A DNA stretch of 64,000 bases from Topomyia yanbarensis (Eukaryota; Arthropoda; Insecta; Diptera; Culicidae). The translations under genes were made by a program, and so were the position numbers. The stretch spans positions 210,540,546-210,604,545 of the forward strand of contig NC_080670.1 of assembly GCF_030247195.1 (NCBI RefSeq), in the 5' to 3' direction. Below the pieces are notes generated by a model, which saw only the letters and a program-made list of their open reading frames with translations, made no database searches and was not told the origin of the DNA. Positions 56,755 to 60,421 of the stretch are shown piece by piece; position 1 is the stretch's first letter, and each line of letters opens with the position of its first letter.

Positions 56755-57261
56755 GTACAACCATTAAACACATGTTAAAATTATTCTATATCTCAACATT
56801 GTGATTAGATAGAGTAGTACTGTTTTCAGCAAAGTTGCTCGAGAGGACTACCCAAGGGGCGTGACACTTCCAATAACTTATAAATTATTATACAATTATA
56901 ATGTTTTTGTAGATTTATAGACGATTATAGAATATTATAATTTTATAGACAGCTTATACTTTTATATCTTTCGAACTTGTTTTCGAACTTATTCTCAGTG
57001 TGCGGTGAATTTATGTGAGTTGTCCCTTTTATTTGTTTACATTATTGAAAACATGATGTGTAAAACTAAAATTTAAAAATCAAACTCCTTTGTACCTGCG
57101 CCATAAAACAAGATATTCGGAAACGATCAACGAGGTCGAATTGCTTATGGGACAGCAGGTACGTACAACAATGATACTAATTCTCAAACCACGCTTAATA
57201 TATTCCCACTCTTCCAGAATGTTGAACAAACCTCTCAAGGGTTCTATCGTTGAATTTGAGC

Positions 57262-58640
57262 AACATTAGCAAAAACACTGAAGGCAGCATCATAATCTAC
57301 TACCTGGCTCGGAAGCAAACGGAAGAGATTGTGGAGCTGTTGAAGAGTAAACGGATTGATTGTGAGCCGTATTATGCGTGTCTTGTGTTGAAGCAGAGGC
57401 GATAGGCTTTGTCCGACACCGTTTTCGGATTATTGTGGCTACGATAGCTTTCAGAATGGGAATCGACAAACCGGATGTTAGACTGGTCATTCACTATAGT
57501 GCGTCGAAGGATTTAGAAAGTTATTATCAGGAAGCCGGTAGAGCTGGCCGGGATGGACAACCATCCAAGTGTATTATGTTTTGATGTTGCGCTCATTTCA
57601 AAACACGAGCTATTTCGAGAACATAATAGGGGATCGACGAGAGCGGCAATTATGATTTTAGTAAGGATACGGAACATTTGTAGAAAGCTATTGAAACCTT
57701 CGATGGTGGTACAGGTATAGCGCTACCGATCGCACTGCTGCACCGCTCCAAAAGCAAGAAACTGTGATCATTACTTGAAAATCCCTTGCACGGTCTCGGG
57801 AAGTCACGAGGTGAGGAATGGTGGAAAGCGTTGACCGTTTTTCTAGAAAGAGAAGGATTTTTTTTCAATAATGGAATACAAGTGAATAGTTTACTTTTAT
57901 TTGCTGGTTCGAGTGCAACCACTGTATGATACAACATTCGACTTTTAAAGCCGACCAAAGGCGCTCCCAAAGTTACTACCATCACCTGTCAGTGGAAGTT
58001 CTCGTATGCTGGAGCAATCACTTGTGTTAAAACAGGACTTTACTCAGGATATGGTAAAGATTGTCTTGGAAAAGCGCTCCGAACTGGCCACCGCGTACGA
58101 ATGTATGCCCTACACGATTTCTTCGAATCAAGCCCTTCACCAGATGTCTACTATTGGACCGCTGAATTTGGAGGAAATGAATCATGCCAAGTTAGATGGG
58201 TTCTCTGATATTAAGATTCAAAAATTTGGCAAAGAATTTCTATCCTGCATTCAACAAAAACTGAACTTCTTACTCGGTAATGCAGCAGTAACAGCAGTGA
58301 TGGATTGTCTGTCATGCAGCGGGCTCTGAAGCGGAGCCCATTGACGAAAAGTAAGTTGTTACCAACCCAGCAAACAAATTTGAACCTCTGGTTAGAGGGT
58401 CGCTCAGTGGCGGATACTGCCAAGTTTCGAGGCTTGTTAGAGACATCGATTGCTAGCCATTTATATGTGACAATCAAACATGGCTTTCCTTTCTGCTGGA
58501 CCGGGTGGACATCGATCGTAGCTTGTTTGAACACATCAAATCGAATCTTCCATCCGCTCTGTATGGCATCTAGCTAACTGATATTAAAAATCGATGCATC
58601 CCACATGTTCCATTCGATTAAATTAAATTAGTACTGGCAT
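57262..58640 (+). pseudogene. WRN/RecQ-type DNA helicase remnant (helicase C-lobe, RQC, HRDC, HTH)
   Basis: Domain order follows a WRN-type RecQ protein. The helicase C-lobe is 57262-57585, with ARKQTEEIVELLKSK, motif V region [20 protein letters not shown], and motif [18 protein letters not shown] winged-helix RQC-like part is 57640-57930 (GLGKSRGEEWWKALTVFLE). The HRDC domain is 58050-58250 (MPYTISSNQALHQMS, GPLNLEEM, KIQKFGKEFLSCI). A C-terminal helix-turn-helix as in WRN and bacterial RecQ is 58375-58500 (LWLEGRSVADTA). Stops and frameshifts (near 57400, 57583, 57660, 58325) break it into pieces, and the ATPase N-lobe is absent. RecQ helicases unwind DNA during repair; this copy cannot. 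The pre-57262 sequence has a GTACGT...TTCCAG interval that may be an old intron, so the copy is probably genomic rather than a retrocopy. Confidence 0.85.
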
Positions 58641-59300
58641 ATGTTCACGTAAGGCAACACCTACAATCGCTACAAGTTCAGTTGGAAAATTATGTTGCTC
58701 CAGAGACTACAGTAAAACCCGTTCCACCCGCAAATGAAGACTTTTTTTTCAATAGGTCCTATCTGCAAAAGAGAGCCTCTCTTTATTTACTTTCTCTTCC
58801 GCGAATTACTCGGTCACCTTTCTGATTTCCCGTCAACTGTATGCATAATAAGCTAGTAAAAACCTTGGTCTTTCGAAACATACCGATAAATGTTTAAAAA
58901 GTTTTGTGGTTTCGCGGTAATAATGGAAAGAGAAAGCGAAAAAAGAGGGCTCTCATTTGCAGATTGGACCTAATGAAAAAAAAGTCTTCAAATAATCTTT
59001 GGGGTGATGAAGACGACGATGAATTATCTTCGTGGAAATTGATCTTATGTGCGAGAAAGCAAGCAACAGTCAAAAAGAGAATCAAAAGCCCCAAATGACC
59101 GAATGCATCAGCATTGATGACGAGGAAGAAGATTTCGATTTGGATGAAATTGCTGCAATGGAACAGGCGGTGATGCGTCCTTTGGTGGAGGCTCCAATGT
59201 TTAAGTCGAGAGTACTACGAACAATAGTTACAAATCAAGGAGAATCATTCTTTCGACACAATGCATTAAATGCATTTTGGAAGCCATGTTTCAAATAAAT
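58641..59300 (+). pseudogene. C-terminal tail of the WRN/RecQ-type remnant
   Basis: A frame from about 58700 gives ENYVAPETTVKPVPP and later, after a gap, KKKSSNNLWGDEDDDELSSW and QATVKKRIKSPK. The overlapping frame 59032-59298 reads TECISIDDEEEDFDLDEIAA and VEAPMFKSRVL, then a stop at 59298. Such an acidic/basic low-complexity tail after HRDC and HTH is usual in RecQ proteins. It probably represents the natural C-terminus of the captured gene, broken by frameshifts. Confidence 0.6.
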
Positions 59301-59474
59301 GTTTTTTTAGTTAAAAAAATGATTAAAGATAAACCGGGATTTTTGTAAACATATCGAAGCCCCTTTGCGGAATTTCATAATTGCCGTCATCGGCTTTTGC
59401 TTCAAATCATTTCCACTAATTTCTTCATATCATTAACAACTATACCATCTTACGACACTTTTTTTCAATGTTCA

Positions 59475-59552
59475 TTAAATTCTTTTCACTGCCGGAATCT
59501 GCGATTTCACCAAACCTTGATTGTCGTCTGCCTGGAGAACTATACCATATCC
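59475..59552 (-). pseudogene. Captured terminal exon of an unidentified gene (minus strand)
   Basis: On the minus strand a strong acceptor (TTCTTTTGTACAG, + 59565-59553) is followed by a 25-codon frame, GYGIVLQADDNQGLVKSQIP and five more residues, and a TAA. It fits as the last coding exon of the gene whose earlier exons are at 59801-60143 and 60230-60295. The product is not recognised. Confidence 0.5.
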
Positions 59553-59800
59553 CTGTACAAAAGAAGCAAATGCAAAATCAGAACGGGTTGATTAATTTGA
59601 ACTAGTTTGTGACATTACCTGGCTCTCGTTCAGCTTATTGGTGACAGATTAGGCCGCGGATTTTCCTAGTTGCCTACCAGAAACCCGAGGATAACACACG
59701 ATTGGCCTATTTGCGCATGCATCGAATGTTTGTTCTGTAGATCGGTAAAGTCATTTGAATATTAAAATGAAATGTGAAGACATTTATGAGTAAAACTTAC

Positions 59801-60143
59801 CGAAAGAAAAAGCACCTTGCTATTGTGTGGCGTTGCTATATCTACTGTTGCGGAATCTGGGTGATGATAATTCTATTTTGTGGTTGTTGCTGCTGCTATC
59901 AGCCAATGGTCATCTAATTGCGGTTGCTGAATTAACGTCAAACCCTGTGGCAGAACCGTCGTTAGAACGTTATTGCAACCGACCGGATGGTGGAGTCTCA
60001 ATTTGCTGCTGCTGCTGTGAAATATTGGTGACTGGCGCTGACATAGTGGCTGTTTCGGTTGGGATGGTTGAATCACTATCGGTGTTAATACATCTATTTG
60101 GAGACGTAAGTCTTTCTGGTTCACATGGCACAAATGACACAAC
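59801..60143 (-). pseudogene. Captured internal exon of an unidentified gene (minus strand)
   Basis: Bounded on the minus strand by an acceptor (TAATTAGAATAG, ending at 60144) and a consensus donor GTAAGT (59800-59795). In the phase set by the upstream exon it reads VVSFVPCEPERLTSPNRC, then a Ser/Thr/Pro-rich stretch with a Gln run (NISQQQQQIETPPS), then a stop and further stops. The composition suggests a low-complexity region of a regulatory protein, but no family is recognised. The open frame on the + strand here is its shadow. Confidence 0.5.
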
Positions 60144-60229
60144 CTATTCTAATTAGTACCGGTTGTGTCGCTGGAGCCGAATACTAATCAGAACCAGCCA
60201 GAATTATATGCAAATATTTGGGTACTTAC

Positions 60230-60295
60230 CATTTCTTGCAACACCAATTTTTCATTGTTTGTAATCACACGCGTAACTATGGTAACGTTTCTTCG
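60230..60295 (-). pseudogene. Captured upstream exon fragment (minus strand)
   Basis: The minus-strand frame RRNVTIVTRVITNNEKLVLQ continues with EM to a consensus donor GTAAGT at 60229. The 86-bp gap to the next exon start (60144-60229) has intron-like borders. The 5' side is cut off by the A/T-rich end of the mobile element. Confidence 0.45.
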
Positions 60296-60421
60296 AATTT
60301 TTTTCGAACTTTTAACACTTCGAATACAGTTATAACTTTTATAGACAATTATAAATAAATATAAGGGGATATAAAAAATATAAAATCATGTGAAATATTT
60401 TTATAAAAGAATGTCACGCCC

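Follow-up and report, generated by a model that had tools for sequence, protein, structure and literature searches.

The window analysed here is a 64,000-nucleotide stretch of the genome of the mosquito Topomyia yanbarensis (contig NC_080670.1, positions 210,540,546 to 210,604,545 of the forward strand) and it contains at 56853-60424 a transposable element that carries a decayed part of a gene for a WRN-type helicase. From left to right the element consists of a left arm (56853-57239, plus strand), the WRN segment (approximately 57240-59373, plus strand) and a right arm whose gene-like features read on the minus strand (59401-60424). It ends in short imperfect inverted repeats, CAAGGGGCGTGACA and CNAGGGCGTGACA, and is flanked by an 8-bp target-site duplication, GGACTACC, identical at 56845-56852 and 60425-60432. 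The left terminal inverted repeat (TIR) occupies 56853-56869 on the plus strand (CAAGGGGCGTGACACTT) and the right one 60409-60424 on the minus strand, where the reverse complement reads CGAGGGCGTGACATTC and the family form is CNAGGGCGTGACACTC. Similarity between the two termini fades within about 17 bases, and the TIRs are roughly 14-17 bp long. A first-pass annotation of this DNA had placed the unit at 56857-60421 with perfect 10-bp inverted ends and a flanking direct repeat of about 12 bp. The inverted pair (GGGCGTGACA) is present as described at 56857-56866 and 60412-60421; taken alone such a pair is not improbable, with 2 found in a one-mismatch scan as against 1.57 expected in shuffles, and we regard it as real because the ends belong to a multicopy family. 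The direct repeat also exists, as the 14-bp GGACTACCCAAGGG, of which 8 bp are the true duplication and the remainder is right flank that repeats the TIR start CAAGGG by chance, so that an element with TIRs and duplications stands while its boundaries shift to 56853-60424.

The family was sought in the T. yanbarensis assembly (1.168 Gb, 1044 contigs), where 78 exact matches to the 17-base left end were found and none to a reversed control pattern; a pattern combining the TIR with subterminal sequence gave 0 matches in viral contigs. With the left 394 bases as query 41 matches were obtained from the 40 scored of 130 first-look candidates, and 20 genome places were taken from this search (L009-L028, higher L numbers being further places that were fetched). 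The right end was found in 17 of the 20 within the 9 kb read, making 18 copies with the window, and was not seen within that distance in L022, L023 and L025. Three left ends on C3 (C3:36737533, 36741530 and 36745527) lie exactly 3,997 bp apart, which suggests tandem duplication of one element copy, and seven same-strand left ends fall within about 0.36 Mb at C2:342622159-342977920.

Perfect 8-bp duplications flank 17 of the 18 copies with both ends placed and all 17 of these 8-mers are different, with no copy among the 18 giving a match if 6, 7, 9 or 10 bases are taken as the duplication length; for L028, which has one G fewer, the left boundary was moved inward by one base. As it is 8-bp duplications that bound the copies, the unit in the window is assigned to 56853-60424 with GGACTACC as its duplication. 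The same observations refute the idea that the WRN locus was simply duplicated as a segment lacking element boundaries, which we consider practically out of the question, as the common sequence ends at the TIRs and the duplications differ from copy to copy. A common left flank in L019, L022 and L023 speaks for that alternative and indicates that part of the spread took place by duplication of larger segments. The inverted ends are thus far from private to this locus, and copies that share these ends but differ in their interior, which the first-pass annotation had suggested looking for, do occur, for example L020, L021 and L028, which have no WRN.

The helicase assignment in that annotation, a decayed 3' half of a WRN/RecQ-type gene on the plus strand, is borne out. 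A frame at 57949-58329 matches the HRDC domain (E 1.2e-8), and Helicase_C matched a frame of copies L015 and L016 as well as a hand-joined read-through. Used as a query against the genome, the HRDC region yielded 10 matches (each of 10 candidates was scored), among them one intact gene at C1:56576958 (C1:56.577 Mb, minus strand), the parental locus that had been predicted, on the same contig C1 as the element in the window. In its first exon a frame of 547 codons stays open between the ATG and a GTAAGT donor; a 91-bp intron and a second open exon follow. The best solved relative of the 547-aa frame is human WRN (E 2.5e-161, compared with about 1e-74 for BLM), and all Pfam matches of the gene exceed the cut-off, with DEAD, Helicase_C, RecQ_Zn_bind and RQC in exon 1 and HRDC and HTH_40 in exon 2. 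No TIR was seen in the 9 kb surrounding the parent when one strand was scanned with two 16-base TIR patterns, as many as three errors being allowed.

In coordinates of the parent (L039 reversed) the window retains approximately 1134-1160, 1586-1965, 2152-2387, 2581-3745 and 4030-4154, in pieces 83-88% identical to the intact gene. The left junction lies at about 1135, within a coding exon, and joins the same left arm in L014, L017, L018 and L019; the window copy has this junction near 57240 and has since lost about 1161-1585, 1966-2151, 2388-2580 and 3746-4029. If the left limit is set by L014-L019 and the right one by L040, which holds WRN flank to about 4345 in a stretch present twice in the parent, the captured block amounts to some 3.2 kb of the parent. 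A match of L040 to parent 6586-6661 was considered as a later parental insertion and dropped, being the second copy of this repeat (the other is at about 4250-4390).

Of the parental WRN intron the window keeps the last 46 of 91 bp at 57861-57906 on the plus strand, with the acceptor decayed from TAG to CTG, and in L037, which was fetched from the same locus as L040, the sequence continues through the intron. Because the intron is kept the capture took place at the DNA level and the copies are not retrocopies, in agreement with the first-pass annotation. WRN pieces are found at 17 or more places, comprising 15 two-ended copies (the window, L009-L019, L024, L026 and L027), L035 and L040/41, and 14 of the 17 copies with perfect and different duplications bear WRN. 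In L040/41 right-arm sequence is present at the right end without a recognised TIR motif, and L035 (C3:164358110 region) is rearranged such that right-end sequence stands directly before WRN, where the left arm would be expected.

Codon positions separate the evolution of the parent from that of the copies. Changes at third positions exceeded those at second positions in all 14 of 14 comparisons of parent with copy, by 1.7 to 3.1 fold, the window copy differing from the parent at 0.141 of third and 0.057 of second positions. Between copies third exceeded second positions in 11 of 13 pairs, which are not independent of each other, and the pooled values were 0.065 for first, 0.054 for second and 0.064 for third positions, a third-to-second excess of 1.2 fold. 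As the excess at third positions is marked between parent and copy and small between copies, the parent appears to be constrained and the copies to be drifting nearly freely. A frame of WRN length was not seen among the frames listed for element copies, and the window copy cannot make a helicase. It is further interrupted at 58736-58989 by an insert resembling a miniature inverted-repeat transposable element (254 bp long, with inverted repeats of 43 nt that are 93% complementary, and probably flanked by a 4-bp duplication, AAAT), and the sister copy L009 has the uninterrupted site. That WRN should be an original gene of the transposon and not cargo could be argued from its constant orientation and order across several subfamilies; we think this very improbable in view of the codon pattern, the missing WRN-length frame, the absence of a TIR in the sequence scanned around the intact gene, a left junction inside a WRN coding exon and the two-ended copies that have no WRN.

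The right arm had been read in the first-pass annotation as part of a second host gene, whose last exons would lie tail-to-tail with WRN and have been captured with it as one genomic block. The splice-like sequences on which this was founded are real, with minus-strand GTAAGT at 60229 and 59800 and the acceptor-type motif TTGTACAG near 59554-59561, and the one at 59800 is also found in five further copies (L009, L010, L026, L027 and L020). One frame of the arm is Q-rich (QTRIIITQIPQQ and similar) and is repeated in copies only about 70-90% alike. The same arm is present in three two-ended copies without WRN (L020, L021 and L028), and genome searches gave 77 matches with 40 of 640 candidates scored and 81 with 40 of 80 scored. 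Six unusual matches were fetched as a possible isolated parent, and four of the six carry the right TIR; L047 and L048 showed no right TIR within the 1.4 kb read and no long frame. A single-copy parent was not recognised among the matches, of which these six and a minority of the others were inspected. The exon-like stretch by the right TIR, reading inward and ending at the donor at 60229, would resemble the start of a gene and not the last exons of a neighbour.

The parental locus gave no sign of the right arm in positions 4154-18000, about 14 kb downstream of WRN, where matches were of dispersed-repeat type only. WRN does have a convergent neighbour, as a joint capture would require, and the opposed orientation of the two parts of the element and the splice-like motifs fit with it as well. 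This next recognised gene, on the opposite strand with a frame about 12.8 kb past the WRN stop, encodes a protein with weak WD-repeat matches, presumably KCTD3/SHKBP1. The WD-repeat gene was tried as the second captured gene using one exon, which had no match in the elements (E up to 1). Together with the occurrence of the arm apart from WRN and its many matches, mostly next to a TIR among the unusual ones, this largely refutes capture of two neighbouring genes in one block, which we now regard as improbable; what remains of the proposal is a WRN 3' part within a TIR element, and its second gene is the right arm of the family.

A different possibility is that the Q-rich stretch is an older host fragment, so that two genes were taken up at different times. 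The recurrence of the splice-donor motif and of the Q-rich frame in diverged copies is consistent with this. Its parental gene was not recognised (40 of 80 candidates scored), the stretch may be a gene native to the element, and the majority consensus frame of the right arm still has stops, leaving its coding nature unproven; we consider this serial capture possible though rather unlikely. A wider version, in which the family collected first a spliced Q-rich host fragment, perhaps also a left-arm fragment, and later had its interior swapped for 3.2 kb of WRN, we would put forward with slightly greater reserve still. Were it true, forms from before and after capture would coexist in one genome and the mechanism of capture could be read from their junctions.

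The left arm comprises a subterminal region and an exon/intron-like stretch, CAG|GTACGT to TTCCAG at about 57160-57218. Searching with it gave 23 genome places (all 23 candidates scored), of which 19 are in element copies, 15 of them fetched copies and 4 lying just inside exact left ends; the remaining four are two on C1 at 89% and two on C3 at 76-77%. L023 and L022 have left-arm matches (89%) at a distance of 26-28 kb from their left ends, at C1:117958062 and C1:113170462, and are possibly very long or split copies. The arm was also considered as a possible fragment of MED14, on a weak match of a frame at L020:1236-1631 to PF22984 (E 5.5e-4, below the curated cut-off).

Taken together we consider it very probable that the family is a non-autonomous transposon of the Pack-TIR type whose interior was replaced once by about 3.2 kb of host WRN and which then amplified and decayed. 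Each feature expected of a Pack-TIR is found: TIRs with target-site duplications, a host segment whose parent lies elsewhere and has no TIR pattern in the surrounding 9 kb on the strand searched, kept introns, and many copies with distinct duplications. Under this reading an ancestral member would already have had its own left arm and the gene-like right arm; the WRN block, intron included, would have been copied at the DNA level from the C1 locus in place of the interior in a single event, perhaps by template switching or gap repair; and the chimera would have been amplified to many sites, moved in trans by a transposase that makes 8-bp duplications and may be hAT-like, its copies afterwards decaying by point mutation, deletion and nested insertion. 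L020 and L021 share the left arm to about 351 and pick up again (in L020 at about 2046) at the point at which L040 runs out of WRN flank, and because of this they look like the form that preceded capture. Replacement of the interior by WRN is the simplest account; later loss of WRN from L020, whose interior contains other repeats, is the alternative.

Several points weigh against the Pack-TIR reading or parts of it. The pre-capture status of L020 is not secure, its interior holding at least one other repeat, and the two ends of the captured block are taken from different copies, the right end falling within sequence repeated in the parent. L010 has no right duplication, the sole exception among the 18 copies. 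Codon positions are not perfectly flat from copy to copy and the term neutral is to be taken as approximate. For the right arm half of the 80 candidates were unscored, so that a diverged parent could have escaped. As to mobilisation, a member bearing a transposase did not come to light: 20 frames taken from six copies other than the longest likely ones (C1:72.793, C1:7.416 and C2:398.846 Mb) gave no Pfam match over the cut-off, and the nearest of 150 scored hAT-dimerisation hits (689 candidates) lies 24.8 kb from one of the 78 left ends. The weak Pfam matches of element frames, all below the cut-off, were taken as chance. On the copies seen, the family is thus non-autonomous.

Judged by duplication length the superfamily may be hAT-like or P-like, duplications of 8 bp being found in hAT and P elements alike. 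Elements of the hAT superfamily have short TIRs beginning with CA and prefer targets of the form nTnnnnAn. Here the left end begins with CA and the right end reads CN, while the target 8-mers have T at position 2 in 6 of 17 and A at position 7 in 7 of 17. Of the features of Mutator-like elements (MULEs) the duplications of 8-10 bp are present, all 17 being 8 bp, and long TIRs of over 100 bp are absent. The ATon families of Aedes were rejected as a source since, in the accessible part of their description, they insert at AT and are short.

According to the available sections of Tan et al. 2021 (PMC8277862), 370 Pack-TIRs were found in 100 animals, hAT being commonest (208 of 370), with a median of 224 bp captured and only four multicopy cases in reference genomes; those sections give none in insect reference genomes and Ssk-FB4 as a case in fly populations. 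The present family resembles animal Pack-TIRs in having host DNA between cut-and-paste TIRs, a parent elsewhere and distinct duplications per copy, and it differs from their mostly single-copy, short captures in that about 3.2 kb is present at 17 or more places (PMC8277862, available sections). In mosquitoes Liu and Wessler 2017 described, in the part of the paper accessible to us, derivatives of Muta1 in Aedes aegypti, about 20% of which have host-gene-like interiors, with 145-bp TIRs, duplications of 8 or 9 bp and as an example a 276-bp kinase fragment (PMC5225508). Like the present family these are non-autonomous mosquito elements with host-gene-like interiors and duplications in the 8-bp range; unlike it they are MULEs with long TIRs and a short fragment, against TIRs of about 14-17 bp and 17 perfect duplications of exactly 8 bp here (PMC5225508, same part). 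With plant Pack-MULEs, as portrayed in the accessible portions of PMC8277862 and PMC5225508, the family shares the capture and amplification of gene fragments by TIR elements, while it belongs to another superfamily and has no long TIRs. A 2026 survey of arthropod MULEs mentions gene capture in general terms only in its available text (PMC13359780). No description of a WRN-carrying transposon was found in the titles and abstract openings listed by searches of one open-access literature library. The statement in the first-pass annotation that it knew of no description of such a capture in a mosquito calls for qualification in view of the Muta1 derivatives (PMC5225508).

The family is an unusually large and multicopy case of gene capture by a TIR element in an animal. 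Capture of host genes on a kilobase scale and in many copies by such elements is known in plants and rare in animals, going by the available sections of PMC8277862. With an intact parent, a common junction, WRN pieces at no fewer than 17 places and relatives that may represent the pre-capture state, all in one genome, it is therefore a readable and datable example on which ideas about gene uptake by animal TIR elements can be tested. More speculatively, the copies could give rise to small RNAs that match a DNA-repair gene.

Elsewhere in the window imperfect tandem repeats of TTCCGGGAAATGG-type units adjoin the element on its left (56535-56767), and directly to its right is an inverted repeat with 86-nt arms that are 81% complementary (60447-60939). 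A tandem array at 6029-6532 has translations repeating NSKFEIR / SNFEFRI on both strands. A long open frame on the plus strand at 48058-50013 presumably resembles chordin/short gastrulation, and an apparently intact 951-aa open frame on the minus strand at 14633-17488 resembles what we take to be the endonuclease/reverse transcriptase of a long interspersed nuclear element (LINE).

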